A DNA stretch of 25,417 nucleotides from a virus, in IMG/VR virus record IMGVR_UViG_3300044516_000255, positions 1 through 25,417 of that record; one strand, given 5' to 3'. Below are positions 1-21,569 of this stretch, one piece after another. Both the position numbers and the translations under genes were made by a program. Numbering within the stretch: the stretch's first letter is position 1; the number at the start of each line of letters is the position of its first letter. The notes under the pieces were generated by a model. The model searched no databases and had not been told where the DNA came from. It saw only the letters and a program-made list of their open reading frames with translations.

Positions 1-1572
1 TTGTTCTACTGGCGCGGGTGCAGCTTGTGCAGGCTGAACTGTCAAGGAGTCCTTAACAGTTGGGGCTGGTTCTTCTACTATCGCCTTGGCTAACTCGGCT
101 TGCTGACGCTCGGCTTCTGTTATCGGTTCCGATAATCCGGTCAGCTTTGTGAGATTTTGGTTAAGCTCACCAAGCATTGACTCGCCTTCGGCAATATCAA
201 GTTTAAGCGTTTGTGCTTCTCTGCTTGTGGGTTCAATCGCGGCCAATGTTTGCTTGCGTATCTCTTGAACTTCAGACAATGCCTTAATCTGTTGGTTAAG
301 ATTGTTGGCTTGCGTATCGTCTGGTGAAATTGAAAGATCGTTTGCTACCCTATTAGCGGCATCGTTTATTTGATCTTCAGCGATTTGCTCTGGAGTTTTA
401 GGTTTGGAAAATAATACTTTGCCAACTTGTTTTCCACCCATGCCAACAACCTTTACTGCCCCACCCGCACCTGCGGTAATAGCACCCAATGCCAATGTAG
501 TAGGAGCAACTTCCTTGAATGCTTTTACCGCTCCAGCCAGACCTTGGTATTCGTCAGGCGCACCAGCGGTAGAACCAGTCTTAACATATTGTTCCATCTT
601 TGCTTGGTCTGCGCCTTGCTGTGTTTGAGTAATTGTTTCACCAGCAAGTTCAACTACTTGTCCTCCAGCAACTGCCCCTACTTTTTTCAACAAAGTATCA
701 TTTGCTTTTTGAATTGCTTGGCCTGCTACATTTGTTGCCGCTTTCTTTCCAAATCCAAAGGCATATTTCAATGCGCCAAGTTGAACTGCATTTCCGATAG
801 CCTCTGGCCCGGCTTCCCACAATGCTGTATTCTGCGCGATAGGAAGAAGTTCATTGTATGCTTTTGTTTTCTCTTCTTCAGTAAGTGGACTTCCTTTGCT
901 TTCTTCTAAAGATTTAAAAGCATCATACAGGAATTGTCCGCCTGCCATTCGATATGAAACTGGTGCAGACGCAACCATTGATCCGATACCTCCAGCAATA
1001 GCACCAATAGGAATAGTTGCAGATGCAGCAGGGGGAAATAGTGCGCTCGCCGCCGCGCCTGTTATCGCTCCACCAGCAATAGCGGGAGCCATGCCAGCAA
1101 CAGTAAACCCAAGGCTTTGCCCCGCTCCGCGAATCGCTTCACCAACAGCAGTTGACTTACCTTCAGCTTCTCTTGTTTTAGCTTGTTGTTCTAATTGCTT
1201 GAAGTATTCGCGTTGAGTATCAAATGCAGCAAGGGCTTCTTTTGAGTATTGGTCTGGTCTTGCGAGTCCTTCTTTGGCTGCATAGAAAGATGCTGGAGCA
1301 GTTTTTGTTAATCCAGAAAATGCTTCGCCCAGAGCAAGCGGAATATCCGCAATAGTCATCTCCAGTTCTTCTGTAGCTGTCTGTAGCTTGTCAGTAAAAG
1401 AAGTGCCTACTGGTTTAAATCCTTGAAATGCTTCAAATGCTACATCAAGAGGTATGTTATTATTTTTCAGTTCATTGAACTTCGGTTCAGCACTAGCCGC
1501 TGCCTCCCAAATAACATCATCTGGGATTCCAGCATCTCGCGCCTCTTTGAGTTTTTCAAGAGACAGATTCAT
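1..1572 (-). CDS. Large Gly/Ala-rich virion protein, C-terminus outside window
   Basis: An open frame of 524 codons starts at ATG 1572-1570 and reaches the left edge with no stop, so the protein is longer than what is seen. The start overlaps the stop of the preceding gene (ATGA), which supports both the frame and the start. Residues 152-206 form a long Ala/Gly-rich hydrophobic stretch with GxxxG-type spacing, and residues 355-384 a second one; the rest is Gln/Glu/Ala-rich and helical. It is the third of three consecutive proteins of this style downstream of the tail genes, the place where T7-like phages carry their internal core (ejection) proteins gp14-gp15-gp16. Role as a DNA-ejection protein that inserts in the host envelope is inferred from position and composition; I recognise no enzymatic motif in the visible part. 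The missing C-terminus could carry a lytic or other domain. Confidence 0.85.
   Translation of the reverse strand, partial: MNLSLEKLKEARDAGIPDDVIWEAAASAEPKFNELKNNNIPLDVAFEAFQGFKPVGTSFTDKLQTATEELEMTIADIPLALGEAFSGLTKTAPASFYAAKEGLARPDQYSKEALAAFDTQREYFKQLEQQAKTREAEGKSTAVGEAIRGAGQSLGFTVAGMAPAIAGGAITGAAASALFPPAASATIPIGAIAGGIGSMVASAPVSYRMAGGQFLYDAFKSLEESKGSPLTEEEKTKAYNELLPIAQNTALWEAGPEAIGNAVQLGALKYAFGFGKKAATNVAGQAIQKANDTLLKKVGAVAGGQVVELAGETITQTQQGADQAKMEQYVKTGSTAGAPDEYQGLAGAVKAFKEVAPTTLALGAITAGAGGAVKVVGMGGKQVGKVLFSKPKTPEQIAEDQINDAANRVANDLSISPDDTQANNLNQQIKALSEVQEIRKQTLAAIEPTSREAQTLKLDIAEGESMLGELNQNLTKLTGLSEPITEAERQQAELAKAIVEEPAPTVKDSLTVQPAQAAPAPVEQ
120..135. repeat. Palindrome copy 1, TTATCGGTTCCGATAA
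   Basis: Perfect 7+2+7 palindrome inside the large virion protein gene, where it is read as Leu-Ser-Glu-Pro-Ile. Member of the TTATCG-N4-CGATAA family that recurs through the window. Confidence 0.8.
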
Positions 1573-2924
1573 CGCCTATTCAATATAGCGGATGCTTGTT
1601 CAAGTAAAGACTTTCTATCTACTGGTTGCGATGCTTGCGCTGCTTGCGGAATCATTTTAGCTCCTTCTCTTGTCGGGCCTTCTGGTGTTTTAACAGGAAC
1701 CCTTACAAGCTGCGCAATGCCGTTTCGATTATTAATATCTTGAATTGAAACCGGAGACAATGCTACTTGCCTAAATGCCGCGATAATATCATTTCCTTGC
1801 GAGCCTGCTGGAATCTTGATTCTGCGATTTTGGTTTCGCTTGTCGAAGATATATGTTACTGATCTTGATTCACCAATTTCATCACCATCTTCATCAAGCA
1901 CAGGCTCATCTACTGTGGTTAAATCGGCATTAAACACTCCGCCTGTATTTGCAATGAAGTCTCCAACTTTTCCTTCATTTAGCACATTGATTGCGGCTCC
2001 TGTTACTTTATTTAAGTTCTCAACAACATCTCGTTTAGCTTTCATTATTGGCTTACCAGTTTTTTTATCAATTGATTCAGCTTCAACTGGTGGCTTTAGA
2101 TACATTCCACGGATGCCTTGTCCTAGAATCCTTTCAGCATTTGGAAACTCATAGAATTTTGCAAGGCGAGGAGAGTTTGCTATAACATCTTGATTGCTTG
2201 CAATATCTACCGTGTTTTTTTGTAGATAGTTCTTCTTCTGATTTTCGTCTTGAGCCAAATATTGTTCAGCCAATCTACGTAAATCTTTAAATTCAGTTAC
2301 TGTAGGGGGATTTTCAGCAGAATCTTCAATCGCTTTCCTATATGATGGATTTGAAATTTCAGCAGCCTTTTTCTTCAAGATGTCAGTTAGATTTCCGATT
2401 TCTTCTTCTTCTGTTGCTTGAGGCTGTTTGGTTGGCAATTGCTCACCATCAACTATTATAGCATCCATTTCTGTTCCTGCTCCACCGCTAATTGGCGTGG
2501 CTTCATCTGGGACTTGGTATCCGCCGCCATCTTCTCCTCCAAGTAATACATCTTCTTGTGAACTCATAGATGGCAATCCACCGCCAGCCCGCAGAGCTGA
2601 TGCTGCTACCCGCATTGTTTTATACCTATTATCATCAATAGCCTTACCGCCCATCATTGCCAGATTTGCTAGGTTTTGAACGTATGGGTTAGATTGATTT
2701 TGCGCTGCAAGCGATACGATTGCTGAATACCCACCACTGCTATCCCCCGATTCAAATGACTTCATGGCTTCTTGAAATGCTGGAAGAGCAGCTTGCGCTT
2801 GCTTCTGGTATTCTTTTGCAGCAAGTGCTTGACCCACTTGTTGACCAAGATCAGAAAGACTTTTTGTCAACGCGCCATAATCCATAGCGGGGATTCCATA
2901 GCTGATTTGTGGGATGACTGCCAT
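1569..2924 (-). CDS. Internal virion (ejection)-like protein, second of three
   Basis: A 451-residue protein with no recognised family motif. The N-terminal 60 residues are Gln/Ala-rich and helical (ALTKSLSDLGQQVGQALAAK); the middle (residues about 110-190) is Gly/Asp/Glu-rich and probably disordered; the C-terminal half is mixed alpha/beta with many charged residues. The start is preceded by AAAGG about 8 nt upstream, one of the few Shine-Dalgarno-like sites here. The stop overlaps the next start (ATGA). Sitting between two Gly/Ala-rich proteins after the tail genes, it occupies the place of gp15 in the T7 internal core operon. Function as an internal virion or ejection protein is inference from gene order only. 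Confidence 0.85.
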   Translation of the reverse strand: MAVIPQISYGIPAMDYGALTKSLSDLGQQVGQALAAKEYQKQAQAALPAFQEAMKSFESGDSSGGYSAIVSLAAQNQSNPYVQNLANLAMMGGKAIDDNRYKTMRVAASALRAGGGLPSMSSQEDVLLGGEDGGGYQVPDEATPISGGAGTEMDAIIVDGEQLPTKQPQATEEEEIGNLTDILKKKAAEISNPSYRKAIEDSAENPPTVTEFKDLRRLAEQYLAQDENQKKNYLQKNTVDIASNQDVIANSPRLAKFYEFPNAERILGQGIRGMYLKPPVEAESIDKKTGKPIMKAKRDVVENLNKVTGAAINVLNEGKVGDFIANTGGVFNADLTTVDEPVLDEDGDEIGESRSVTYIFDKRNQNRRIKIPAGSQGNDIIAAFRQVALSPVSIQDINNRNGIAQLVRVPVKTPEGPTREGAKMIPQAAQASQPVDRKSLLEQASAILNRR

Positions 2925-2949
2925 ATATTACCTTTCGTAAATTAATCCA

Positions 2950-3765: not shown

Positions 3766-3766
3766 A

Positions 3767-4276: not shown

Positions 4277-5235
4277 CTATACAAGAAGTAATCGTTGGGT
4301 GATGGAGAAAGTAGATCAGAACCAATTAGATTATCTGCCCTGCTATAGTTTGCAAAGCGGATAGGTGCTGCTGTTGGAATTTCCGTATTTTCCATTTCCT
4401 TCTCTTGCTCTTTGATGGCAAGGTCTAGGTTCATCAAGAATTCTTGCGCCTTCCTATTGTCTCTGGAGTTCAGAGCAAGGACAGCATAGATCATCGCATC
4501 TGGAATGAACTCAACCAACTCTTTCGGATCGGTCAGATCGAAGTATTTCTTCGATGCGTAAAGCGTGATACACTCGCAGGTCTTTGGTGCTTTGAATCGG
4601 CGGAAGGTTGGGTTAGCATCGTTCGGTTGATAGATTGCTATCAGCGTCTTTGCTTCCAATGCCGTATCGTAGGCATACACCCGAATCCTACCTTTTGTAA
4701 TTGGCTTGGTTACTGCGCGAATTCCTTTCACAATAAGATCAGACTTCGCCAGCGTTGGAGGATTTGCAGTAGTTACCTTAACCTTGTGGTAGGTGTCATA
4801 CTGGTCTTGCGCTTCAAACATCAACTCTACGCCAATGTCTTCAGCTTCCTCGGCCATTACTCCAATTTGGTATGGATGCGTTGTGTAATCGCGGAATAGG
4901 ACATGGAGTCCCCCTACTTCTACGATTCCTCTATGGCATGATTGATCTGCATGGAGAGCAAAAGCGTTGGTAGCATTGAACCATTCGTCTGCTAGAGATG
5001 CAGATTCATTCCCGATCCAAGCTAGTTTGATTTGCTCATATCGGGCTGGCAGCGTGAAGCAATCGTTCACGCAGCAGATTTGGACATACTCTTCTTGAGA
5101 AGTCCATGCTCGCTTATTCCATAGCAGTCGCCTTGCTTGGTTTACGGCTTTGACTCCGCGCTCGTATGAACAAGTGCCAGAGTCGCCGACAAAACCCTTA
5201 ACAAGCTCTACCATCTCTTCGAGGGTATCAGCCAT
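4273..5235 (-). CDS. Head-tail adaptor / tail tube-like protein (candidate)
   Basis: A 320-residue protein. The N-terminal 45 residues are helical (VKAVNQARRLLWNKRAW), similar in style to podoviral adaptor or gateway proteins such as T7 gp11, followed by a long beta-rich domain and a C-terminal helix (about residues 240-285) that ends in a flexible tail. It contains seven cysteines, including ICCVNDC near residue 53 and KTCEC in the C-terminal half, high for such a protein. Its start is 5 bp downstream of a TTATCG-N4-CGATAA palindrome that fills the gap after the previous stop codon, and its stop overlaps the cupin start (ATGA). Adaptor function is inferred from size, fold style and position just before the ejection genes; a different tail protein is possible. 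Confidence 0.85.
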   Translation of the reverse strand: MADTLEEMVELVKGFVGDSGTCSYERGVKAVNQARRLLWNKRAWTSQEEYVQICCVNDCFTLPARYEQIKLAWIGNESASLADEWFNATNAFALHADQSCHRGIVEVGGLHVLFRDYTTHPYQIGVMAEEAEDIGVELMFEAQDQYDTYHKVKVTTANPPTLAKSDLIVKGIRAVTKPITKGRIRVYAYDTALEAKTLIAIYQPNDANPTFRRFKAPKTCECITLYASKKYFDLTDPKELVEFIPDAMIYAVLALNSRDNRKAQEFLMNLDLAIKEQEKEMENTEIPTAAPIRFANYSRADNLIGSDLLSPSPNDYFLYR

Positions 5236-5240
5236 AGGGA

Positions 5241-5256
5241 TTATCGTTTCCGATAA
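5241..5256. repeat. Palindrome copy 2, TTATCGTTTCCGATAA
   Basis: Sits exactly between the TAA stop at 5259-5257 and the ATG at 5235-5233, leaving 5 bp to the start codon. As minus-strand RNA it can fold as UUAUCG-GAAA-CGAUAA, a stem with a GNRA tetraloop. Confidence 0.85.
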
Positions 5257-5980: not shown

Positions 5981-7987
5981 TTAATTTACGATATTGTAGT
6001 TCCAATATTTCTCTTGGCAACACAAAAATGGTTCGCATTCTTGATTTTCTTCTGGGCAATCGCCAATCGGAGAATCATCATTGTTCTTGATGTTTGCCAT
6101 TAACCTTACTCTATCAATCGTAGCTGCTCCGGTTAGGTTCACTTTGATCTGGAACTCGCTTCCCTCTACCGCTGGGATGCCTGCCAAGTCATTGCACTCG
6201 CTTGGGTCTGGCGTGTTAAACTTGTAGCGTTTGTAGCGATTGCCGCCTTGTTGTGGAAAGCATTCAGTTACTTTAGGCGAGCATGGATCACACCCATATG
6301 TTGTAGGAACTTTTAGTTGTGACCAACATGGATTGGAATCAGCGCGAAAATCAACATCGCTTTCTACCTGCCCCTTAATCTCACTCATCCACATTTCTCC
6401 ACCAGTAATCTTTTTACGTAGGAACTTGTTTGTAGCCCCACTTCGGTTGAAGTCATACCTTCCAGTTGTGAAGAAGGATTCAATCTGTCTGCTTCCATTC
6501 GGGCCGTAGTCATCGCCTTGGGCTATGGTGAACTCATATAGGCGGTTCTTGTTGTCTTTATCAAACGAGAATCCAAACCCACGCTTTTCACCTTGGATTA
6601 GTGCAGTCAGAAGTTGGGTTGGTCTGATGCCTGTCCATACTCCATTCCAACGGAATGATAATTCTGCATCTGGGGCAGGAGTTGAGGATTGGTCTAGGTC
6701 TAGAACAACCATGCCCCGATGATACCTATTCAGTCCTTCCACTCCTTCTGCTCGGTAGGTCTGTGGAGAGACAGTATTGATGAGGTAGTTGTTGAAAAAG
6801 ATAGTAGAAGCGAATTGCTTCATCCACGGAGTATCATTTGATACCCACTTGTTCACGTCCCTAGATAGTTTGCGGAGTGAGAAGTATCTATTGAACTCGG
6901 ACTGGGTATTGGAATAGAATGCCCAACCATCGTGCGAGCGGAACCAAAGCTCACTATTAACTAGAGCTAGATACGGGCTAGTGCATCCGCGCCCAAGGAG
7001 TGAGATACGCTGGATGTTTGATGTGTTCCATTGTGACCTTGGTAGAGAGACATCCATTGAGAATGCTCCGTTTCCTGTAAGGACTACTAGCTGACCTTGG
7101 CCGCGAAGGTTGTATCCCAACTCTGGCATCGCCTTCATCCCTGTGATATTACCCATCATGGCTGGAGTCGAGAACGCGCCGCCTTCTGCCCAGTATCCTA
7201 TCTCCGTGAAGTTCTCTGTATTCTTGGTATCGGTGAACCCGCCACCATAGATGATGTCAGAAGCGTAGATTTGATTGAACCTATCAGAAACAAAGACTCG
7301 ACCGAAGGCATACTCCATGATCGTTCCAATCGGCATCTTTGCCAAGTATGGGTTCAGTCGGTAAGCAGGTAGCTTGACTGTTCCTGTTCCGGTTCCTCTT
7401 TGAGTGTCTGTAATAACTGCCGTGAACTTAACTCCAATCGTATTGGATGGTGCGCCGATCAAAGTGAAGTTGGTAGTCCCAACTGATACAATCTCGCAGT
7501 AGTCTCCGTTTTGAATTTCACTTGCTGTCAGCGTTCCTAATACCCCATCCCATGCTATCGCATTCTGGTAGCCATTTTGAATATATGCCCGATCTTCAGC
7601 TTGCACGAACCATGTGTGCATCATGCCCGGATCGTTGCCTTCGATAATCTTGTAGGCGAATGCTCGGTTGTTTATGATCTTCAGAAAGTAAATAATCCCA
7701 GATACCGATAACAGGATACCATCGCTGGTTCTCAAGTTAGTCGAACGATATGGATACGCACCTTGGAAGCTACCACCAAGAATATCGTTAACGATAGTCT
7801 CGGCTTCTCCATCTCCAGCGAGAATCGGGATGTTCCGAATGCTCGGTCTTGTCCGGTTAATGCCACCTCGGAATGTCCTATTTACCGACTCTGATACTAC
7901 AGACTCTGGTAAATACGATGGATGAGTATCTGCGTCTTGCGCGATGATACTTGTGAATCCATCAAAGACTGATCCTTCTGCTGGCAT
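5981..7987 (-). CDS. Large tail structural protein (nozzle / beta-propeller-like)
   Basis: A 668-residue beta-rich protein of a type I recognise from many uncharacterised environmental short-tailed phages. The N-terminus (FDGFTSIIAQDADTHPSYLP) and the middle motifs YIQNGYQNAIAWDG, GRVFVSDRFNQIYASDIIYG, YWAEGGAF and LWFRSHDGWAFY suggest blade-like beta repeats, as in the nozzle/tube proteins T7 gp12 or P22 gp10. The C-terminal 115 residues contain nine cysteines (for example YGCDPCSPKVTEC and CEPFLCC), suggesting disulfides or metal binding. It begins in a TAATG overlap with the previous gene, and the frame contains a near copy of the palindrome at 7783-7796. Nozzle or tail hub role is inference; a structural tail role is well supported by context. 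Confidence 0.85.
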   Translation of the reverse strand: MPAEGSVFDGFTSIIAQDADTHPSYLPESVVSESVNRTFRGGINRTRPSIRNIPILAGDGEAETIVNDILGGSFQGAYPYRSTNLRTSDGILLSVSGIIYFLKIINNRAFAYKIIEGNDPGMMHTWFVQAEDRAYIQNGYQNAIAWDGVLGTLTASEIQNGDYCEIVSVGTTNFTLIGAPSNTIGVKFTAVITDTQRGTGTGTVKLPAYRLNPYLAKMPIGTIMEYAFGRVFVSDRFNQIYASDIIYGGGFTDTKNTENFTEIGYWAEGGAFSTPAMMGNITGMKAMPELGYNLRGQGQLVVLTGNGAFSMDVSLPRSQWNTSNIQRISLLGRGCTSPYLALVNSELWFRSHDGWAFYSNTQSEFNRYFSLRKLSRDVNKWVSNDTPWMKQFASTIFFNNYLINTVSPQTYRAEGVEGLNRYHRGMVVLDLDQSSTPAPDAELSFRWNGVWTGIRPTQLLTALIQGEKRGFGFSFDKDNKNRLYEFTIAQGDDYGPNGSRQIESFFTTGRYDFNRSGATNKFLRKKITGGEMWMSEIKGQVESDVDFRADSNPCWSQLKVPTTYGCDPCSPKVTECFPQQGGNRYKRYKFNTPDPSECNDLAGIPAVEGSEFQIKVNLTGAATIDRVRLMANIKNNDDSPIGDCPEENQECEPFLCCQEKYWNYNIVN
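7783..7796. repeat. Palindrome near-copy, TATCGTTAACGATA core
   Basis: Perfect 14-bp palindrome inside the 668-residue tail protein gene. The outer bases differ from the consensus (A and G in place of T and A), so it is a weaker member of the family. Confidence 0.55.
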
Positions 7988-8769
7988 TAGGCGTTGACAC
8001 TCTTGATTACGATAAAGCGCAATGTCAGTGCTTCAGACAAACTTCCTGCGGTGATATTACGGATCACGATGTTAGCATTGCCTGCCGCTGGAGCTACCGC
8101 AAAGTTGTATGCACCAAGCGTTCCTCCAGAGATATGACTTACAACAACAATGTCCGTAGCCTCGATCACCGAATTACTCAAGTTAAAGGTAACAGCAGTA
8201 GCGGACGCGAGGGCAGCGTTATCGCTTACGATAATTCCAGTAGGACGATTCAGCGTAACAGAGTTTGTCTTTGCTCCTGCACCTTGGGTAATAGTTCCAC
8301 CTGCACCAGTATTGTATCCAATCTTGGATGAGTTACCATTGGCAAGGATAGTGCTGCTGGAAGTAATTGCGGCAGTAGATGTCGCACCAGAAACAGTCAG
8401 CGACGATGCTGTAATAGCAAGCGTTGGAGAAAGTGAACCTACAGTCAATGCTCCGGTAGTAGTCAATGGTTGGCTACCAAGATCAACTGGGCCTGCTTGC
8501 AGAACACTATTAAGTGTATCAAACTCTACAAGACCTGTAGAATCTTTTCTCAATACAGTTCCGCTCGCTCCATTTGTCCAAGTCAAATTTCCAGCACCAT
8601 CAGTCTTCAAGACTTGCTGGGCAACTGGAGTCTGAATCGTCTTCTGACAAGCAGCGGAGTCTTCTACTACCAATCGTTTCCCATTGGCGGTTGTTTCTAG
8701 CGGCTCACACAACAACGGATATTCCGAGTCGCATGGTGGGCATGGTGTGCAAGGTGTGCAGAGGCTCAT
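7987..8769 (-). CDS. Fibre-like virion protein with Cys/Pro-rich N-terminus
   Basis: A 260-residue protein starting with a Cys-Pro-rich head (CTPCTPCPPC within the first 13 residues), followed by a motif common in phage fibres (LKTDGAGNLTWTNGASGTVL, residues about 54-73), then a low-complexity Thr/Ser/Ala/Gly region of beta-repeat character (GALTVGSLSPTLAITASSLT) and a beta C-terminal domain of about 80 residues. It follows the tailspike and precedes the nozzle candidate, with TAATG coupling to the latter. Probably a tail fibre or appendage subunit. A nine-codon open frame at 8795-8766 ends in an ATGA overlap with this start and may couple translation. Confidence 0.8.
   Translation of the reverse strand: MSLCTPCTPCPPCDSEYPLLCEPLETTANGKRLVVEDSAACQKTIQTPVAQQVLKTDGAGNLTWTNGASGTVLRKDSTGLVEFDTLNSVLQAGPVDLGSQPLTTTGALTVGSLSPTLAITASSLTVSGATSTAAITSSSTILANGNSSKIGYNTGAGGTITQGAGAKTNSVTLNRPTGIIVSDNAALASATAVTFNLSNSVIEATDIVVVSHISGGTLGAYNFAVAPAAGNANIVIRNITAGSLSEALTLRFIVIKSVNA
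8219..8234. repeat. Palindrome copy 3, TTATCGCTTACGATAA
   Basis: Exact family member inside the 260-residue fibre gene. It is read in a different frame from copy 1 (Ile-Val-Ser-Asp), so the conservation is at the nucleotide level. Confidence 0.8.
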
Positions 8770-11156: not shown

Positions 11157-11576
11157 TTAAGCAAGAATTATTTTTTGGATTGTGCTTCCCTTGGGTTCTG
11201 TAACATGACCATTATCCCAAGCTATTTTTCCTTTGCCAATATGTGTTCCTTTGCTCTTAGGATTGTCTCTACGCGATACTCGTATTCCTTCTGCTGGCGG
11301 CCATTTTATCGTTAACGATACTTTCTCTTTGGTCGGCTTGTCTTTTTGAACTGGTCGATAACCGAAGACAGTAACCTTTCTTTTCAGTTCTTCGTTCCAA
11401 TAAGTGATAGCTTTCTTTTCTACTTGTCCACCTTTAATGGCAGATGACAATTGTTCTGCAACTCTTTCTGGACTGCACTCCAATTGTTCAGCAATTGTTT
11501 CGCGGGAATCCCAACCGCTCGGCCATTTGTAATGCTCCTTGTTGTGAGCCTCTACTATTTTGTTCCAGTTTGCCAT
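11157..11576 (-). CDS. Winged-helix-like hypothetical protein
   Basis: A 139-residue protein. Residues 24-74 look like a helix-turn-helix with a wing: RETIAEQLECSPERVAEQLS gives two helices and a turn, then KKAITYWNEELKRKVTVFGY gives a beta hairpin. The C-terminal half is basic and beta-rich (KEKVSLTIKWPPAEGIRVSR) and ends with Gly/Lys-rich strands. It starts 3 nt after the phosphoesterase stop with a strong GGAGG 8 nt upstream, the clearest Shine-Dalgarno in the window. A DNA-binding regulator, or a DNA-binding partner of the phosphoesterase, is possible; no family is recognised. It also contains a near copy of the palindrome (11306-11321). Confidence 0.8.
   Translation of the reverse strand: MANWNKIVEAHNKEHYKWPSGWDSRETIAEQLECSPERVAEQLSSAIKGGQVEKKAITYWNEELKRKVTVFGYRPVQKDKPTKEKVSLTIKWPPAEGIRVSRRDNPKSKGTHIGKGKIAWDNGHVTEPKGSTIQKIILA
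11306..11321. repeat. Palindrome near-copy, TTATCGTTAACGATAC
   Basis: One mismatch (the last base) from TTATCG-N4-CGATAA. It lies inside the winged-helix-like gene, read as Val-Ser-Leu-Thr-Ile. Confidence 0.65.
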
Positions 11577-11579: not shown

Positions 11580-12584
11580 TTAGTCCTCCAAGAATATCGG
11601 CCAAGTTCCAGTTCTTCCGCGTTTTGCGTCGAACAAAAAGTAAGTTTGTTGTGGTGGCTCGAACGCTGCTTTGATAGCAATGCTATATGCGTTGTGTCCT
11701 ACGAGACTTCCGTTGCTAACCCATTTAGGGTTTTGTTGGGAAGTATGCCAGTGACCGAAAATGTCAATGTCCGCTGACCTTCCTTTATTCCAACTTGAAA
11801 TTGCTTTCTCTACGGGTATGGTCAACCCTCCGATACCCCCTTGATATTTCAATCCATCACCATGATGCAGTCGGAATGTTTTTCCAAACACTTCAAGGTA
11901 TGTGTGGTAGCTTTCTCCTACAATCCATTCCACACCTTCAATCTCTTGCTCTAGCAATTTGTATAGAAGCCACTCGTAGCTGTTCTTGTAAGCCGTGCTA
12001 TGTCGAGGCTTGATTGTAGTTCTGCCGTGATTGCCGATTGAACATGGAATAATAATCCGTTCAAAGTTCCCTTCTTTTTTAATTGTGTTGATTAGCTTGG
12101 ATAGCTTTTGACGCAACCAAAGAATTGTTTGAGTAGGTGACAATTCGTTTTCCTCGCGAAGTTCTTCGTGAATGTATCCCGTCATTAAATCTCCCAAAAG
12201 TGCAAGAACCAAGATAGGAATATCGCGTCCTACTCGTTCAATTTCTGTTAGTCGCAAAATAGCTTGGGTAGCTTTTTCAATGCGACGATCTGCAATTTCA
12301 AGATTGAATTCGTTTAAGTGTGAAACTGTTCTTGGATCAACTTGTTCTTCAACGTGCCAATCAGACAATACAGCTACCGCCGCGCTTGATACACCTCGCG
12401 CAGATTCTATCTTGTATGTGTCTTTCTTAAACTTATCTTCCTTCAATGCAGATACAATTCCAAGTTGCTTATCCAACTCGTCTACTGTTTGTTGGTAGCG
12501 TTTAATCTGGTTTTTGTAATCCGCGATTTCTACTTCATGGGATTTCTTTGTAGCATCCCGTTCGATTTGTTGCCATTTATTCAT
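11580..12584 (-). CDS. Calcineurin-like metallophosphoesterase
   Basis: A 334-residue protein with all main motifs of the family in order: D75-x-H77 (LSDWHVEE), G131-D132 (LLGDLMTG), G184-N185-H186 (IGNHGR), H240-H241-G-D (LHHGDG) and G277-H-W-H280. These residues bind two metal ions and hydrolyse phosphodiester or phosphomonoester bonds. A coiled-coil N-terminus (residues 1-50) precedes the catalytic domain. The substrate is unknown; related phage proteins are often annotated as DNA exonuclease-like. It is placed between the lysis genes and a winged-helix-like gene, an unusual position among virion genes. The start is 7 bp after palindrome copy 4, and the leader is A-rich (GATAAAAAACAAATG). 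Confidence 0.9.
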   Translation of the reverse strand: MNKWQQIERDATKKSHEVEIADYKNQIKRYQQTVDELDKQLGIVSALKEDKFKKDTYKIESARGVSSAAVAVLSDWHVEEQVDPRTVSHLNEFNLEIADRRIEKATQAILRLTEIERVGRDIPILVLALLGDLMTGYIHEELREENELSPTQTILWLRQKLSKLINTIKKEGNFERIIIPCSIGNHGRTTIKPRHSTAYKNSYEWLLYKLLEQEIEGVEWIVGESYHTYLEVFGKTFRLHHGDGLKYQGGIGGLTIPVEKAISSWNKGRSADIDIFGHWHTSQQNPKWVSNGSLVGHNAYSIAIKAAFEPPQQTYFLFDAKRGRTGTWPIFLED

Positions 12585-12591: not shown

Positions 12592-12607
12592 TTATCGTTT
12601 ACGATAA
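12592..12607. repeat. Palindrome copy 4, TTATCGTTTACGATAA
   Basis: Perfect 7+2+7 palindrome just upstream (7 bp) of the phosphoesterase start. On the minus strand the stop codon of the previous gene (TAA, 12601-12599) lies inside it, encoding Leu-Ser-stop. Confidence 0.85.
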
Positions 12608-13141
12608 TTCCGTTAATAAATATGGTATCGTCTTCTGGTTGTATCTACTCATCTCCGAGTAGACGAGATTTATGAACCCGTCCCATTGCGGTGGGTAGAT
12701 CGTCTGACAGCCGAGCGAACTCGTAGTGTTATATCCTCCTTTATGGATGTTTATCGCAATCCCCATCGAATCACCTTCACCATCTCGCGTAACAGGGAGT
12801 TGTTCTTTTGCGTTAGCAGGTCGTAACGCTGGGTAGCCACCTCCGGGTTTAGAGATACCATGATTGCCTTTACGAAAGCGATGCACGCCTGTTTTAAGCA
12901 CAGCAATGCCTTTCTTGAAAACTGAAGGATCAGTATTAGCGTTAAACGTAGCATGAACGCTTGGTGATAGAAGAATGATCGCATCGTCGTAGATACCTCT
13001 GTCGTTCTTTCCTTTTGCCCCCATCGAGTCGAGGTAGTATCCACGAATCCCGACCAAACAAACCAAGTCTTCGATACCCGCTTTGATTACCATTGCGAGT
13101 GTCTTTTCCTTGGCTTGCTGTGGTCTGGAGTTGGGAATCAT
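12599..13141 (-). CDS. L,D-transpeptidase-like protein, candidate endolysin
   Basis: A 180-residue protein. The segment around residues 31-72 (GIRGYYLDSMGAKGKNDRG, then DDAIILLSP and FNANTDPS) and the motif H133-K-G135 ... S142-L-G144-C145-Q (INIHKGGYNTTSSLGCQTIY) match the His and Ser-x-Gly-Cys signature of L,D-transpeptidase (YkuD-like) active sites. Proteins of this pattern occur in phages and bacteria, usually unnamed. It starts in an ATGA overlap with a tiny membrane protein gene and follows a lipoprotein and another membrane protein, so it is likely the lysis enzyme acting on peptidoglycan cross-links or stems (inference). No signal peptide is seen, consistent with holin-dependent export. 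AAAGGA lies 4 nt before the start. Remodelling of host wall at entry is an alternative role. Confidence 0.85.
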   Translation of the reverse strand: MIPNSRPQQAKEKTLAMVIKAGIEDLVCLVGIRGYYLDSMGAKGKNDRGIYDDAIILLSPSVHATFNANTDPSVFKKGIAVLKTGVHRFRKGNHGISKPGGGYPALRPANAKEQLPVTRDGEGDSMGIAINIHKGGYNTTSSLGCQTIYPPQWDGFINLVYSEMSRYNQKTIPYLLTELS

Positions 13142-14771: not shown

Positions 14772-16565
14772 TTAGAACGTGCCGCCAGCGAGGACGAATC
14801 CACGGAGAGCGCTTGTTCCAGAACCGATGAGGTCTTGCGAAACAGTGACCGATCCAACAACGTCGAGCGCAGTTGAAGGAGTCTCGGTTCCGATACCAAC
14901 ATTACCAGTAGAACCAACGTAGAGTGCAGTAGAACCTGCACCGCTGATCTCCATGCTGGAGGCTTGGAGGTTAACACCGCTGATAGAACCACCAGTGATG
15001 TTTACATTGTTGGCGTTCTGGGTTGACATTGTGCCAAGACCAGCAATCGTGCCTTCAGCCGACGAAAGGCGGGTCTCATGGTTGTCGGTAACGTCGCGGA
15101 CGCTCTGAACGTCGCTCTGGCGAGCAGTAACTTCACTGGCGAGATCAGTCGTCAGTTGGGCTTCAGCCGCTTGAGCGCGGGTTACTTCATTGTTAAGCGA
15201 GGTCTGGAGCGCAGACACGGCAGCTTCACGTGCGGAAACTTCGTCAGCAATATCACTAGCAATTTCCGAAGCGAGATCACTGATAGCCGTTTGGCGAGCA
15301 GAAACCTCGTTGTTGATTGCAGTTTGCAACGCGGCTTCAGCAGCAAGAGCGCGGGTCTCTTCAGCGGCAACAGCAGCTGCAGAACCAGCGGTCAGGTTTG
15401 TGATTGCGTCTGTGATGGAGCTATCAGCCGATTGAAAGGCGGCAACAACTTCCGTCAAACTATCAAGAGCGGCTGGGTCGATGTTCGAGAGAACGTTATC
15501 AACGCGGGTATTAACAGCAGAGATAGCGGACTCACGGGCGGTCGTTTCAGCGGCGATAGCGGCAGCGCGAGCGGTCGCTTCGGCAGAAATGGCAGCAGTG
15601 CGAGCGGTTACTTCAGCAGCAACAGCGGCTTCACGGGCCGAAACTTCGCTAGCGAGATCAGCAGCAATGGCCGCCTCGGTAGCTTCAGCGCGGGTTTTCT
15701 CTGCGGCAACAGCGGCGGTGCGAGCAGTAACTTCAGCAGCGAGATCGCTGGTCAGTTGAGCTTCGGCAGATTGCGCACGGGTAATCTCGTCAGCAAGATC
15801 GCTCGCAAGTTCATCCTCCGCAGCTTCAGCGCGGCTAACTTCACTAGCAAGATCGCTCTCCAAAGTGCTAACACGACCAGTCAAGGAAGTAGCAGCGTTT
15901 TCAATCGCAACGATGTCGCTTTCAACTTCACTCACACGGCCTTCAAGAAGACCAGCGGCAGTCTCAATAGCGGTGCTACGAGTGTCGTTGGTGTTGGCGC
16001 GGGAAACCAAATTGCTGATGTCGCTAGCCATGAGGCTATCGGCAGCAATACGAGCGGTTTCTTCATCAGCAATATCCGAAGCAAGGGCAGCTTCGGCGGC
16101 TTGAGCGCGAGCAACTTCAGCACCAAGGGCGGATGTCGCCGATGCGCCGAGAGCGGAAATCATTCCCGAGAGATCACCGTCAGCTGTCTGAAAAGCGTCA
16201 ACAATTTCTGAAAGAGAGTCAAGGGCTGCCGCATCCGTGTTGGATACGATCGCGTCAACTCGGCTAGAGAGGTCGCTGATTGCAGATTGGCGAGCAGTAA
16301 CTTCTGCGTCGAGGGCGGATTGAACTCCACCAGTCAAAGATTCGGCATAAGCCTTGGTCGAGAAGTGACCCTCACCAGCGATTGGCACAATGGCGGTAGC
16401 ATTACCTGCTCCGTCATTACCAGTTCCAATGTAGAGGATTTGGTCGTTTTCGTTGTGAGCCAACTCTGCTGTGAGAGCGGATTGTGGTGCGCCTGCTCCC
16501 GCTGGATCACCGAGAAGACGGTGACGATTGCTGAAGCGTGTGCGATTGATGTCGTTGTTTGGCAT
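14772..16565 (-). CDS. Long coiled-coil tail fibre
   Basis: A 597-residue protein. The N-terminus (residues 28-67) carries a fibre attachment module (LTAELAHNENDQILYIGTGN). Residues 80-500 are a very regular Ala/Glu/Arg/Thr coiled coil with repeats such as AEVTARTAAVAAEKTRAE, expected to form a long trimeric rod. A 42-residue segment near 101-142 is duplicated near 353-394 (RVDAIVSNTDAAALDSLSE versus RVDNVLSNIDPAALDSLTE). The C-terminus has beta motifs NVNITGGSISGVNL and NVGIGTETPSTALDV typical of fibre tips. Start is preceded by AAAACTAAACTAAACAAAA, shared with the capsid gene, suggesting high or coordinated expression. It is less AT-rich than the tailspike. Likely a tail or side fibre. Confidence 0.9.
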   Translation of the reverse strand: MPNNDINRTRFSNRHRLLGDPAGAGAPQSALTAELAHNENDQILYIGTGNDGAGNATAIVPIAGEGHFSTKAYAESLTGGVQSALDAEVTARQSAISDLSSRVDAIVSNTDAAALDSLSEIVDAFQTADGDLSGMISALGASATSALGAEVARAQAAEAALASDIADEETARIAADSLMASDISNLVSRANTNDTRSTAIETAAGLLEGRVSEVESDIVAIENAATSLTGRVSTLESDLASEVSRAEAAEDELASDLADEITRAQSAEAQLTSDLAAEVTARTAAVAAEKTRAEATEAAIAADLASEVSAREAAVAAEVTARTAAISAEATARAAAIAAETTARESAISAVNTRVDNVLSNIDPAALDSLTEVVAAFQSADSSITDAITNLTAGSAAAVAAEETRALAAEAALQTAINNEVSARQTAISDLASEIASDIADEVSAREAAVSALQTSLNNEVTRAQAAEAQLTTDLASEVTARQSDVQSVRDVTDNHETRLSSAEGTIAGLGTMSTQNANNVNITGGSISGVNLQASSMEISGAGSTALYVGSTGNVGIGTETPSTALDVVGSVTVSQDLIGSGTSALRGFVLAGGTF

Positions 16566-16575
16566 AATTAATTTG

Positions 16576-16594: not shown

Positions 16595-16612
16595 ATGTGT
16601 TTTGTTTTTTAA

Positions 16613-16628: not shown

Positions 16629-16637
16629 ATAAAAGTG

Positions 16638-16853
16638 TTAATATGATCCAGCTTCTTCGATGTCAACGAAAATCTCGACTGGATCGTTTAAAATTTCTGG
16701 ATTTAATGGAAGAGAATCTAAATTTATTTCTGAACGGCGAACTGCGTATGTTCCTTCGGGAAGTGGCCAAGTTTCGGTATTTCCGTCCCAACGCACAACC
16801 ATTTCAAGCCATCCGCCTGCCGTATTGATTATTGCCCAATCGTCAATTTCCAT
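16638..16853 (-). CDS. Small hypothetical protein between two fibre genes
   Basis: A 71-residue acidic protein with no recognised family (begins MEIDDWAIINTAGGWLEM; ends VEIFVDIEEAGSY). It appears beta-rich. I choose ATG 16853-16851, two bases after the stop of the 696-residue fibre, because the longer frame from 17009 would be an out-of-frame reading of that fibre's glycine-rich end and gives an absurd Trp/Arg-rich sequence. Being between two fibre genes, it may be a fibre assembly chaperone or a connector subunit; this is inference. Confidence 0.7.
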   Translation of the reverse strand: MEIDDWAIINTAGGWLEMVVRWDGNTETWPLPEGTYAVRRSEINLDSLPLNPEILNDPVEIFVDIEEAGSY

Positions 16854-16855
16854 AA

Positions 16856-18946
16856 TTAAAAGTAAGTTGTAATCATTAATGCTCCGGGTGCGCCATTGCC
16901 TCCGTTGCTTCGGTCTCCAGAACCAATAGTTGATCCGCCACCACCGCCACCAGAGCCATATGCTGAACCATTTGCTCCATTTCCTCCAGACCCAGTTGCA
17001 AATGAGCAAGCTCCGCCGCCGCCACCACCAGAGCCATTAATCATCAATGTAGATAGTGTTCTTGGAGTAGTTGGAGTTGCAGAACCTCCATTTGCTGTTG
17101 CGCTTGCAACGCCTCCGTTGCTTATCAAACCAACAAAATGGTTAGTTCCGCCCGTTCCTCCATTGAATACACCTGTTATATTTCCCACAACTGCCGCCGC
17201 AGTTATACCGCCGCCAGCACCGCCACTTGATGGAGAAAAATTTGTTCCACTACCAGCACCTCCAGTTCCAGTTATGTTTGCCGCGCCTCCACCATTTCCT
17301 GCTGGCGCACCAGCACCACCTGATGTTGGTGCGACTGTGCCTCCATTGCCAGCAACAGTCCCACCCGCAGAAGCTCTGACGAGTGTTCCTTGAGTGATAC
17401 CAGCAAATGATGTAAGCGTTCCGAGAGTAGCGTTTGTTAAAGTAGTTCCAACTCCTCCAGTTCCTCCACTACCTACAGTTATTGTATAACTTGCATCTGT
17501 AAGTTCTGATGCGTTAATTGAAGCATGAGAATAACCACCAGAACCACCACCAGCACCGCCAAAAACTGCAGTTCCAGCAGTCTGCTTGCCACCATATCCA
17601 CCACCACCACCACCAGCCACACATTGAACTACAACTTCCCTTGCGCCTACTGGTTTTGTCCAAGTTCCTGATGCAGTATAAATATCAATTTGAGGAGAAA
17701 GTGAAGTTAGTGTTCCAGATGCAAGCGTAAGATTGCCTGCAACACTCAATTCTTCAACCGATCCAGTTCCAGCAGTTGTTCTGCCAAGAATTCGATTGGT
17801 TGCTTGAGAAAGTTTGCTTACTTCAATAGCTGCGGTTGCAGACACGTCAGCATTTACAATCGTGGATGCTGGTGATTGGAATACGCCATTGACTACTTTA
17901 ACAACGCCAGTTCCTGTGACGGATGGCATTGTTGTGTGAGTATGTGATGGATAGTTACCGCCAAAATGGAATGTAAGACGATTGTTGTTTTGATTCGCTC
18001 GTCCATACAAATAAACAAGGATTCGATCAGTTGCAAGAATCGTAGTTTGCGGCATTACCACCGATGCAACCTGTTGGTTAATTTCAGCGGGATCGTAGAT
18101 GTAAACATCGTTAGAAGTTGCAATGAGCGTTGGAGCGTTTACTCCATCGTATTTCAAAACTTCAACTTTGAAACGAATTTGGTTTGAAGAATTTGTAGTC
18201 GTTGATTCTACAAAGATATTGAAATCCCAAATGCCAGCGGGGATTGCAGTGGCAGATGGAATATTGAGATCAGTAACAAACGATGCGAGAAAGTCGTAGC
18301 TTCCTGTAGAAAGAATTGGTGAAAGATAACTTGTTGCGGTTGTTTCTCCGATAATTCCAAGTTCTTTCGATGCGTTTGGTGTTTGCGGAATATTTGTTAC
18401 AGGAGCGTCTGCTGCTGTGTTGAAATTCAAATAATAAATTACACCACCACCACCAGAACCACCGGGAGGAATAGTCCCCGGAACCCAACTTGTTCCATTG
18501 TATTGCAAGACTTGTCCATTGACTGGTGTTGCATTGCTTACCGGAGTTCCTTGCAATCCATCTACAGTTGGATTTGGGTATGTGCCAGTCAAGTCTCCGC
18601 CAGCAGACCCAGTCGGAATGCGAGCGTCCGAAAGTCGAGAATCATTGCCTTCGGCGGCTGTTCCAGCGGAAGTTCCATAGCTAACAGCAAGTGTTCCAGA
18701 AGTGGTAATTGTTCCACCAGTAAGACCAGTTCCACCAGTTACGCTTGTAACGGTTCCTGATCCACCGCCGCCAGATATGCCTTCGATTGCGCGAAGGATT
18801 TCAAGCCTCTGAACATCTTCAGTTGCATCTTTGAAACAAGTATCCGTTAATGGACTAATATATGTCCCTTGCGCCTCTGCTGCTCGCAAAATAGCAAGAC
18901 GTTGAATATCGTTTGTTCCATCCAAGAACTGTGAATCAGTTGGCAT
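16856..18946 (-). CDS. Tail fibre with glycine-rich receptor-binding tip
   Basis: A 696-residue protein. Residues 8-55 contain a tandem pair (DGTNDIQRLAILRAAEAQ and DATEDVQRLEILRAIEG), probably the attachment part. Residues 64-130 carry common fibre motifs (GTVTSVTGGTGLTGGTITTS, then SDARIPTGSAGGDLTGTYPN). A beta domain spans about 165-340. From residue 421 (IDIYTASGTWTKPVGAREVV) begins a glycine-rich tip with runs of Gly, ending GGNGAPGALMITTYF; this is the layout of glycine-rich adhesin tips that build polyglycine-II-like sandwiches in some phage fibres. Likely role: host receptor binding. The start lies 6 bp after palindrome copy 5. Confidence 0.9.
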   Translation of the reverse strand: MPTDSQFLDGTNDIQRLAILRAAEAQGTYISPLTDTCFKDATEDVQRLEILRAIEGISGGGGSGTVTSVTGGTGLTGGTITTSGTLAVSYGTSAGTAAEGNDSRLSDARIPTGSAGGDLTGTYPNPTVDGLQGTPVSNATPVNGQVLQYNGTSWVPGTIPPGGSGGGGVIYYLNFNTAADAPVTNIPQTPNASKELGIIGETTATSYLSPILSTGSYDFLASFVTDLNIPSATAIPAGIWDFNIFVESTTTNSSNQIRFKVEVLKYDGVNAPTLIATSNDVYIYDPAEINQQVASVVMPQTTILATDRILVYLYGRANQNNNRLTFHFGGNYPSHTHTTMPSVTGTGVVKVVNGVFQSPASTIVNADVSATAAIEVSKLSQATNRILGRTTAGTGSVEELSVAGNLTLASGTLTSLSPQIDIYTASGTWTKPVGAREVVVQCVAGGGGGGYGGKQTAGTAVFGGAGGGSGGYSHASINASELTDASYTITVGSGGTGGVGTTLTNATLGTLTSFAGITQGTLVRASAGGTVAGNGGTVAPTSGGAGAPAGNGGGAANITGTGGAGSGTNFSPSSGGAGGGITAAAVVGNITGVFNGGTGGTNHFVGLISNGGVASATANGGSATPTTPRTLSTLMINGSGGGGGGACSFATGSGGNGANGSAYGSGGGGGGSTIGSGDRSNGGNGAPGALMITTYF

Positions 18947-18952
18947 AATATT

Positions 18953-18968
18953 TTATCGGTTACGATAA
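18953..18968. repeat. Palindrome copy 5, TTATCGGTTACGATAA
   Basis: Begins directly after the TAA stop of the 88-residue gene (minus strand) and ends 6 bp before the 696-residue fibre start, filling the gap between the two genes. Confidence 0.85.
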
Positions 18969-19235
18969 TTATGTAACAGGGTTAAGAGCAGCAGACAGAG
19001 CCTCATTAGTAAGGAAGAATTGCTGGTCTTCAGTTTTTTGCACAAAGCAATTTTGAGTAACTGGGGTGAGGCCACCAATGGTTGCGAATCCAACATAGAA
19101 CTGATAGAGTTTGGCGGCATCGCTTGCCGAGTCGTAGCAACCAAAAGAGATTGGTTCAATGCCAGCGGCGGTAGCAATCGTCTGAACGAAAGGATAGGTT
19201 TTATCGCGGTAGGGTAGAGAGGTAAAGCAAGCCAT
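18969..19235 (-). CDS. Small hypothetical virion protein
   Basis: An 88-residue protein of unknown family, mixed alpha/beta, with three cysteines (C3, C33 and C63) and no membrane segment or signal peptide. It follows the decoration-like gene and a GC-rich hairpin, and precedes the fibre genes. Size and place suggest a minor capsid component, head completion or fibre-attachment protein; nothing in the sequence decides. The start is preceded by an AT-rich leader (CCATTTTCTATTATG) without a Shine-Dalgarno. Confidence 0.7.
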   Translation of the reverse strand: MACFTSLPYRDKTYPFVQTIATAAGIEPISFGCYDSASDAAKLYQFYVGFATIGGLTPVTQNCFVQKTEDQQFFLTNEALSAALNPVT

Positions 19236-19250
19236 AATAGAAAATGGTTA

Positions 19251-19279
19251 GGGTGAGGGAGAATGTAACTCCCCCACCC
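19251..19279 (-). terminator. Hairpin after the decoration-like gene
   Basis: Minus-strand stem GGGTGGGGGAG/CTCCCTCACCC (11 pairs with one G-U) and a 7-base loop, followed by TAACCATTTTC. The weak T tract suggests partial termination or 3'-end protection of the upstream message. Confidence 0.65.
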
Positions 19280-19289
19280 AGATTAATGA

Positions 19290-19904
19290 TTAGTAGTAGA
19301 TACCAACAACGTAGGCATTCACGTAGAGTGCGCCAACACGTCCAGCGGTATCCGCGCCCGAAGCGACATTAGCACCAGCGTTCGCATAGGTGAACGTGGT
19401 GGAGTCAACAACAGTAACTTCCGCCTGCACATCGTTGAACGAGGTGTCGGTCATGCTGGCAATCGTGATGACATCGCCCGTGGAGAATCCATGAGCAGCG
19501 GCAGTAACGATGGTAGCAACGCCCGAAGTGCGGGAGCGAGTAGCGGTGGCTTGACCAGCACCCACAGTGCTTTTCAGCAAGCGGAGTTTACCAGCACCAG
19601 TGATGACGTAAGGATTGGCGGCAATCGTAAGAGGATTGTAGCGTCCTTGGTTATCAAGACCGTCCGTGATGGTCAGCGAGGAAGTGATGTTTTCACCCGT
19701 GGTTCCGTTGTCAACGATCACAACTGGATCGGTGGCAGTGGTTCCGCGAGCGTATGCGGTTTCCAGAACGATGCTAGTTGGAAAGAACTTGGTGTCTTGG
19801 TCGTTGAGAACCAAGAGATCAGCGTCTCCAGCAGCGAGGAGGTTAACGGCGGTCGGGCCAAACAGGTTGACACGATCATAAGCGAGTGGTCGAGAATTAG
19901 ACAT
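19290..19904 (-). CDS. Capsid decoration-like protein with FCCH-type beta insert
   Basis: A 204-residue beta-rich protein directly after the capsid gene. Residues 122-190 hold a module typical of many phage structural proteins (ATIVTAAAHGFSTGDVITIA, then STTFTYANAG), often annotated by similarity to the E1 FCCH domain. It looks inserted into a decoration-type fold whose strands flank it (ITGAGKLRLLKSTVGAG before; GALYVNAYVVGIYY after). Place and composition suggest a head decoration or stabilising protein made in high copy. The leader TAAACAAAATCAAAATAT resembles that of the capsid gene (TAAACAAAAATCAAAT). Alternative: a minor head or tail protein. Confidence 0.85.
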   Translation of the reverse strand: MSNSRPLAYDRVNLFGPTAVNLLAAGDADLLVLNDQDTKFFPTSIVLETAYARGTTATDPVVIVDNGTTGENITSSLTITDGLDNQGRYNPLTIAANPYVITGAGKLRLLKSTVGAGQATATRSRTSGVATIVTAAAHGFSTGDVITIASMTDTSFNDVQAEVTVVDSTTFTYANAGANVASGADTAGRVGALYVNAYVVGIYY

Positions 19905-19929
19905 ATATTTTGATTTTGTTTAAGGTTAC

Positions 19930-19956
19930 GGGGAGAGGCTTTAATAGCCCCTCCCC
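19930..19956 (-). terminator. Hairpin after the capsid gene
   Basis: Minus-strand stem GGGGAGGGGCT/AGCCTCTCCCC (11 pairs, one G-U), loop ATTAA, in the 62-bp gap between the capsid and decoration-like genes. It lacks a T tract on the minus side; likely an attenuator or mRNA 3'-end stabiliser that sets the capsid-to-decoration ratio. Confidence 0.65.
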
Positions 19957-19966
19957 TTATTTAACT

Positions 19967-21376
19967 TTAGGAAGGCACAACGATGTCACCAACGCCAGCG
20001 CAGCTATAGCAGTCCTGATTGTTTTCAGGGACGATGTAGCTCTGAACTTCGCAGCAGGAACCATAGAGGTTCTTGCTCTTCGGCATACGATGCAGGAAGG
20101 TGTGCATGATGGTTGGGTCTTTGACCTGTGCGGCCAGACGGAACTGGGCTTGATAGAAGCCCGATTTACGCCAGCGGTTGCACTCCCAATCAGGGTTCTT
20201 CCATTCCCAATCACCAGCGTAGTTCTGGGTCATCTGTTGGGCTTGGCCGTAACCAGTCGAGGAAGGCATCGTCCATTTGCACATGGCTTTGTTGACCATA
20301 GCAACCGAGATACCGAAGTCGGCATTGCGGTAGGCTTTGTTCGGGACGTAGGCGCAACCTTGTTCCATCACAACTTTGATGTAGCGAGGAACGCGAACGA
20401 GACGCGCCCAAGTAGCAGGATCAGCTTCGTTGAACGGAGCGAGCGATGCGTTGAAGGCAGTGTCAGCGTTGAAGCGAGCGGCGTTGATGTCGTAACCAAA
20501 AGCGTAGTCGCCAATGATACGATTGATGCCGAGCTTCAGACGGGTAAGACGCTCATCGAAGTCCGTGTTAGCATCCCAGTAGCCATTGTTGCGCTTGGCT
20601 TGGAAGTAAAGCGCACGGCCAACTTGAGGATCAGGGATAACGATGTCGAGCAGAGGCTGACCAGTCGCATCTTGCAGATCAAGGCGGAAAGCGTCATCTT
20701 CGTCTTGGAGGTCAACGAGAGCATCGTCGAGCATATCAAGCGAGAGGTAAGCGATCTTGTTGAGATCGGCGGGAGCGAGCTTAACGCGAAGTGCGCAGAG
20801 GTCGTAACCAGCTTCGTTGTTGAGGGTGTGTTCTGGAACGAACCATGCTTGGTCATCGACCAGACCGCAGTAGGTTCCGTCATCAGTGGTGATACCCATC
20901 CATTTGTGTCCAGCACCACCGATATAGTTGCTACGAAGGAACTCTTCGTGAACGTTCTTGGTGATACGGGCATTGGACTCCTCGAACTGAAGAATCTCTT
21001 CAGCAGGGAAAAGGCGATAGAGAAGGCTCTCGACGCAAATCCAGTCAGTGGTCATCTCTTTGCGGAGAAGCTCGAAAGTGTAGCTCTCCGTGCCGGGACG
21101 TTGGATGACTTCGGGTTTGCTATCGCAAGAATCAGTCTCGCAGTAGGTGTCGGTGATCGTGCGGAAGGGGCTGCAAGGATCGTGGAATCCACGGCCAAAG
21201 CGGAAAGCCTTCTGCTCGGTTGTGTGATTCAAGGGCCAAGATTGCTCCTCGAAACGGGTGAAATATGCACTGTTGGTGACGAGTTTCTTAACATAGAGGT
21301 CGTTGAAATACTCGCGGCCCTCGCGGAAGAAACTGTCAATTTCAGCACAACTATTGAAGTAGAGTTGATCGCTCAT
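19967..21376 (-). CDS. Major capsid protein (presumed)
   Basis: A 469-residue protein without a signature I can prove, but placed right after a scaffold-like gene and before a decoration-like gene, with its own terminator-isolated leader, as expected of a major capsid protein (HK97-type fold assumed for tailed phages). Size is in the usual range. It is rich in Trp, Tyr and acidic residues, and has 14 cysteines, including TYCETDSCDS near residue 80 and the C-terminal pairs GSCCEV and QDCYSC, which is high. The base composition is visibly more GC-rich than that of the tailspike, in line with high expression. The A-rich leader AAAACTAAACTAAACAAAA ends 13 nt before the start. It would form the icosahedral shell. 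Confidence 0.8.
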   Translation of the reverse strand: MSDQLYFNSCAEIDSFFREGREYFNDLYVKKLVTNSAYFTRFEEQSWPLNHTTEQKAFRFGRGFHDPCSPFRTITDTYCETDSCDSKPEVIQRPGTESYTFELLRKEMTTDWICVESLLYRLFPAEEILQFEESNARITKNVHEEFLRSNYIGGAGHKWMGITTDDGTYCGLVDDQAWFVPEHTLNNEAGYDLCALRVKLAPADLNKIAYLSLDMLDDALVDLQDEDDAFRLDLQDATGQPLLDIVIPDPQVGRALYFQAKRNNGYWDANTDFDERLTRLKLGINRIIGDYAFGYDINAARFNADTAFNASLAPFNEADPATWARLVRVPRYIKVVMEQGCAYVPNKAYRNADFGISVAMVNKAMCKWTMPSSTGYGQAQQMTQNYAGDWEWKNPDWECNRWRKSGFYQAQFRLAAQVKDPTIMHTFLHRMPKSKNLYGSCCEVQSYIVPENNQDCYSCAGVGDIVVPS

Positions 21377-21389
21377 TGATTTATTTGAT

Positions 21390-21408
21390 TTTTGTTTAGT
21401 TTAGTTTT
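21390..21408 (-). promoter_or_regulatory. 19-bp leader repeat before the capsid gene
   Basis: Minus-strand AAAACTAAACTAAACAAAA, ending 13 nt before the capsid ATG; exact copy of 16594-16576. A shorter version, AAAACTAAACAT, precedes the start at 5421. Confidence 0.75.
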
Positions 21409-21418
21409 GCACTGCTAA

Positions 21419-21427
21419 ACTATACCA
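21419..21427 (-). promoter_or_regulatory. Possible extended -10 promoter of the capsid gene
   Basis: Minus-strand TGGTATAGT fits TG-N-TATAAT with one mismatch. No good -35 is seen at 16-18 bp. It would start RNA near 21411, giving a leader of about 35 nt that contains the 19-bp repeat. Confidence 0.4.
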
Positions 21428-21462
21428 CAGAGGAATAGCAAGCGAGTGCTTGGTTTCCTCTG
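21428..21462 (-). other. Imperfect hairpin upstream of the possible capsid promoter
   Basis: Minus-strand outer arms CAGAGGAA/TTCCTCTG and inner arms CAAGC/GCTTG around loop ACTC, with small internal loops. It abuts the possible -10, so it may be an operator or, if transcription begins further upstream, a structured leader element. Confidence 0.55.
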
Positions 21463-21553
21463 CTGGACTCAACCCAGAGTTTATTCTGTCCAGAAATCGT
21501 TTTTCATGCGAGGTCGAAAACTCGCCAGCCAGAGTGCGGCTGAATCCCTAATT

Positions 21554-21569
21554 TTATCGTAAACGATAA
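21554..21569. repeat. Palindrome copy 6, TTATCGTAAACGATAA
   Basis: Perfect 7+2+7 palindrome, the reverse complement of copy 4, in the capsid leader about 180 bp upstream of the capsid start. Confidence 0.85.

Follow-up and report, generated by a model that had tools for sequence, protein, structure and literature searches.

Dispersed palindromes as probable operators of a phage-encoded helix-turn-helix protein in a lineage of uncultured phages

A family of palindromes dispersed over a viral genome most likely represents the double-stranded DNA operators of a phage protein of about 325 amino acids (aa), which would act as a global transcription regulator. The palindromes were noticed in a stretch of 25,417 nt, positions 1 to 25,417 of the record IMGVR_UViG_3300044516_000255, which is here referred to as the window. 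The window matches positions 32022-6606 of the viral contig IMGVR_UViG_3300042561_000324 (50,870 bp, designated G011) at 99.976% identity.

Copy number and conservation

The six exact copies of TTATCGN4CGATAA that had been reported for the window are all present, and two additional sites with an intact 14-bp core bring the number of core sites to eight (Table 1). Among the near copies of the original prediction, the one at 11306 stands with a single mismatch, and the one placed at 7783 in fact starts at 7782 and retains its core. A weak match at 10006, in which the core is broken, is not a site and was left out of the counts. Per shuffled window the expectation for the 14-bp core is 0.007, versus the eight found, and none of 100 dinucleotide shuffles of the window reached the observed count, which rules out a chance origin.

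Table 1. Palindromic sites and associated elements in the window
Feature	Position	Strand	Context
Exact site, TTATCGGTTCCGATAA	120..135	.	Within giant virion-protein gene, read L-S-E-P
Exact site	5241..5256	.	Fills gap between two minus-strand genes; start at 5235 lies 5 nt downstream
Intact-core site, TATCGTTAACGATA, both outer bases changed	7782..7797	.	Within gene 5981-7987
Exact site	8219..8234	.	Within gene 7987-8769
Core-intact site, one outer mismatch	11306..11321	.	Within gene 11157-11576
Exact site	12592..12607	.	Overlaps stop codon of gene 12599-13141; 7 nt upstream of start at 12584
Exact site	18953..18968	.	Takes up the interval separating gene 18969-19235 from gene 16856-18946; start lies 6 nt downstream
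Exact site	21554..21569	.	Precedes likely major capsid gene; at about +15 to +31 within predicted transcript
Predicted -35 of capsid-gene promoter, TTGACA	21615..21620	-	In 68 of 68 upstream regions compared
Predicted -10 of capsid-gene promoter, CAATGT	21592..21597	-	YANNNT in relatives
Likely major capsid protein gene	19967..21376	-	Position after portal and scaffold; downstream of 21554 site

The original prediction had named further copies in the rest of the genome, retention at the same places in relatives and an excess over controls as its checks, and all three came out in its favour. Copies occur outside the window, with 17 core sites over the whole of G011. With the likely capsid protein as query, 80 related viral loci were recovered, all 80 of which carry the motif (324 exact sites in total). 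In 17 long contigs (44-60 kb) there are 16-33 sites each when up to one mismatch is allowed, many of them kept at the same places, as against 0-2 for the reversed pattern; by a strict count the near-whole genomes hold 11-17 exact and 15-32 core sites each. The association with this lineage is also seen in an exact TTATCGTTAACGATAA scan of 2.9 million viral contigs, where among the matches listed 73 of 78 new loci encode proteins of the lineage and the remaining five have one site each. The phage record collection that was searched yielded no direct relatives, and the literature that was searched, in which few subscription journals were covered, held neither a description of the motif nor a link of LmbU (see below) to phages.

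Symmetry of the site and selection within genes

The consensus of the site is DTTATCGKWWMCGATAAH, or, symmetrised over 153 unique exact sites, D TTATCG K W W M CGATAA H. Within this set C never occurs at position -1 and G never at position +1; apart from rare exceptions, position 7 takes G or T and position 8 takes A or T. Every degenerate position is mirrored in the opposite half (K with M, W with W). This mirroring marks the palindrome as the double-stranded DNA target of a putative homodimer with two equal subunits. At the central step AA/TT and TA are the usual forms, and AT is rare. Among near copies, 86 of 108 substitutions fall on the outermost base, and the reversed-pattern control gave only eight near copies.

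The claim that the nucleotide sequence is what is conserved inside genes is borne out by the site in the terminase gene terL, which is read F-I-G-N-D-K. The codons TTT ATC GG[A/T] AAC GAT AAA are found in 75 of 75 genes (64 of them distinct), and the sole variation preserves the W position. Codon diversity in this stretch is 0.039, the lowest of 109 six-codon windows, for which the mean is 0.36. Judged from these codons, the intragenic sites are under selection at the nucleotide level.

Placement relative to genes and promoters

Placement was assessed with simple gene calls in 13 sequences, among which the window repeats a part of G011. Of the exact sites, one third (33%, versus 2.5% expected) are found no more than 20 nt ahead of a start codon, most commonly at a distance of 5-7 nt, and 43% lie inside genes versus 89% expected. 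The gaps between sites are fairly even, with a coefficient of variation mostly of 0.4-0.86.

Several sites lie close to predicted promoters. All 68 regions compared upstream of the likely capsid gene contain TTGACA, followed in most of them after 16-17 nt by a YANNNT -10 element. The distance from the first base of this -35 element to the beginning of the site is 49-52 nt in 68 of 68 loci, so that the site begins at about +15 of the predicted transcript. Ahead of the exonuclease operon come, in this order, a terminator hairpin, the site, a spacer of 17-30 nt and a TTGACA or TTGACG promoter. Downstream of a conserved 127-aa gene the site precedes a TTGACA promoter by 9-29 nt in most genomes. 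As a separate observation, Shine-Dalgarno-like motifs are rare ahead of start codons in the 12 near-whole genomes (L085-L120) and the window, yet the promoters look sigma70-like (TTGACA, N16-17, YANNNT).

A candidate reader protein

The best candidate for the protein that reads the palindromes is about 325 aa long, belongs to the core proteins of the phage and has a predicted LmbU/ParB/Noc-like helix-turn-helix (HTH) domain. Its gene lies outside the window, at 39003-39977 of G011, downstream of the exonuclease gene and in the operon whose promoter region holds a site. The protein is encoded in 12 of 12 near-whole genomes, where it is 74-93% identical to the reference. The LmbU family model NF038070 matches the HTH region (residues 148-271, E 6e-7; residues 145-277, E 6.8e-11) with full-model scores of 29.6 and 42.4 bits, far below the curated cut-off of 125 bits. 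For two AlphaFold models, the first with a pTM of 0.57, the best-ranking PDB entry is Noc (7nfu) or ParB/Spo0J (1vz0); the Foldseek probability is 0.95-1.00 for Noc 7nfu and 0.82-0.84 for ParB entries, but the E-values are 0.06-0.8. The N-terminal CTPase motif (G[ERD]RR or ENxxR) is absent from all 14 homologs examined.

Protein and motif appear to diverge together. In a second subclade, whose protein is 57-62% identical, the core of the site is kept and its centre is narrowed mostly to TTAA. A more distant phage, G023, has a portal protein 22% identical to that of the window's clade and few other detectable homologs. It retains a 226-aa version of the candidate reader (27% identical) together with nine sites, all with KWWM at the centre, where 0.03 would be expected. 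Proteins 33-38% identical to the G023 version are encoded by a further set of phages, group C, with contigs of up to 69 kb. The group C loci that were fetched have no TATCGN4CGATA sites, and an unbiased count of palindromes gave TATTGTT-N-AACAATA as their leading dispersed palindrome; TATTG-N5-CAATA is found in 12 of 12 group C records with 1-9 copies each and the reversed control has none.

These two motifs sort with one residue of the predicted recognition helix. Proteins with the helix SYSTVS (residue T) go with 455 TATCG sites versus four TATTG sites, and those with SYS[A/H]VS (residue A or H) go with 25 TATTG sites versus no TATCG site. G023 is nearer to group C in its overall protein sequence, yet its helix residue is T and its motif is TATCG. 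The motif thus co-varies with the predicted recognition-helix residue, a correlation that comprises very few independent events and in which groups A and C also differ in many proteins and many residues. A glycosyltransferase (83%), a dCMP deaminase (75%) and pieces of tail proteins are common to group C (L519-L541) and the window's clade (L086), although the portals are only 20-21% identical. Such gene sharing between group C and the window's clade suggests common hosts and gene exchange.

Proposed mode of action and alternative explanations

In the proposed mechanism a homodimer of the 325-aa protein would sit on each palindrome, with one subunit per 8-bp half-site (TTATCGKW). Where it is bound by or just downstream of a sigma70-like promoter, it could control initiation or block the escaping polymerase; at gene boundaries and within genes it may form a roadblock, as stoperators do. 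The direction of control may be a repressing one. From the layout, which by analogy is stoperator- or KorB-like, we infer a global transcriptional regulator. The mid-gene sites and the fairly even spacing fit a genome-organising role as well. It is conceivable, as a tentative extension, that several deeply diverged phage families use a ParB/Noc-like protein lacking the CTPase motif as both global regulator and genome organiser, with half-site and spacing of its dispersed palindromes co-evolving with the recognition helix; it would then be a phage counterpart of KorB or Noc with a different mode of action.

The main rival is a genome-organising role as such, in which the palindromes would be centromere-like or nucleoid-occlusion-like anchors of the parS/NBS type. 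A ParB/Noc-like protein would then organise, segregate or position the phage DNA, and regulation would be secondary. The predicted DNA-binding fold, the build of two abutting 8-bp half-sites known from parS and NBS (PMC7383237) and the dispersed, rather even spacing all speak for it. It is nevertheless considered unlikely: the GERR CTPase motif is found in 0 of 14 homologs, ParA was not seen among the genes covered by a partial scan, and segregation does not need the strong attachment of sites to promoters and start codons. The operators might also belong to a phage-encoded XRE/CI-like protein of 135 aa (HTH_3), or to a host regulator, and not to the LmbU-like protein. XRE/CI-like proteins do bind palindromes and the XRE gene is present in nearly all genomes of the clade, but its divergent promoter has a palindrome of its own, TTGACNNGTCAA, with exactly one copy in each of 12 near-complete clade genomes. 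The XRE protein was rejected as reader on this ground, since a single-copy palindrome at its own locus makes it an unlikely reader of the dispersed sites. It is, moreover, undetected in the motif-bearing G023 and in group C, and a host regulator would leave the correlation with the phage protein unexplained; this alternative is somewhat less probable still than anchors. In contig G011 (L118:2993-3004), TTGACNNGTCAA overlaps divergent -35 boxes in the stretch that separates the XRE gene from a gene of 128 aa.

The chances are slimmer that the palindromes are the classical immunity stoperators of a temperate phage, even though their number, their placement at gene boundaries and the intragenic copies recall cluster A mycobacteriophages (PMC6550527). 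The motif is symmetric, whereas stoperators are asymmetric and oriented with transcription, and no integrase was seen among the genes scanned. Pattern-limited searches of GTDB representative genomes with TerL and the LmbU-like protein gave no relatives, so that neither a host nor a prophage state was found. Least probable by a clear distance are RNA hairpins for processing, stability or translation control, which the original prediction had offered next to operator or stoperator-like sites. A stem of 6 bp with a loop of 4 nt can be drawn, and the third of sites shortly upstream of start codons, mostly at 5-7 nt, would suit such a role. However, no compensated changes of the outer pair were seen (0 versus 8.2 expected from independent half-sites), and the loops, which run from TAAA to TTTA, share no sequence. 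Translation control through a hidden Shine-Dalgarno motif was ruled out, since few genes anywhere in the genome carry such a motif (30 of the 297 that lack a site and none of the 57 that have one), which leaves little for a hairpin to hide. A role as terminators was likewise rejected, as the window's sites are not followed by a T-run on the coding strand. The operator or stoperator-like part of the original prediction is thus the one that fits best, on the symmetry of the sequence, the placement at promoters and boundaries, DNA-level selection and co-variation with the HTH protein, while the hairpin part is disfavoured.

Comparison with known systems

RK2 is a replicon of about 60 kb. Its KorB operators, OB, lie either 4-10 bp upstream of a promoter or at distances from 45 to more than 1,000 bp (PMC11790492). 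The phage system resembles KorB/OB in a predicted ParB-type HTH, a 16-bp site, the closeness of sites to promoters and the putative function as global regulator; it differs in that it belongs to a phage and not a plasmid, in a protein without the CTPase motif, and in sites that have another sequence, are more numerous and in part lie downstream of the promoter and inside genes. The stoperators of cluster A mycobacteriophages (L5, Bxb1) are asymmetric sites of 13 bp bound by a monomeric repressor (PMC9283540, PMC6550527). Both systems have tens of copies in phage genomes of about 50 kb, placed within genes as well as at their boundaries, and in both the site and the protein diverge together, but the phage site described here is symmetric, spans 16-18 bp and would be bound by a different DNA-binding protein. 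Because the CTPase motif of the one and the asymmetry of the other were not found, the sites are classed with neither KorB nor stoperators. Mycobacteriophages are the main known case of dispersed phage operator networks, and the present one, if true, would be a second solution, built on another site and another protein, in uncultured phages that are widespread. With a candidate protein, the exact site and a putative natural switch of specificity available, binding, code and function become testable with one purified protein.

The ParB/Noc/KorB type likewise has palindromic sites of about 16 bp, each composed of two half-sites. The 16-bp build, the predicted similar HTH fold and the dispersal, a property of Noc sites, are shared with ParB-parS and Noc-NBS; the half-site, the association with promoters and the lack of a detected CTPase motif set the phage system apart. 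Both parS (TGTTTCAC-GTGAAACA) and NBS (TATTTCCC-GGGAAATA) are 16 bp long and consist of two abutting 8-bp half-sites (PMC7383237). LmbU of Streptomyces is a homodimer that binds the palindrome CGCCGGCG (PMC6510168). Sequence homology to the LmbU family is detectable in the HTH region; unlike LmbU, for which few target sites are known, the phage protein is far below the family cut-off and has a different N-terminal region.

Other features of the window

Most structural proteins were left without a name by a PHROGs search, and the likely major capsid protein has no family match, its identity resting on gene position. The gene at 11580-12584 (-) matches a PHROG exonuclease family (phrog_284) and is located within the virion-gene module. 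Over the likely capsid gene runs an antisense open frame of 489 aa (19910-21379, +), which is probably meaningless and misleads simple gene callers. A tail-fibre-like protein encoded at 14772-16565 (-) is built of many similar stretches, for example EVTARTAAVAAE and DLASEVSAREAA.
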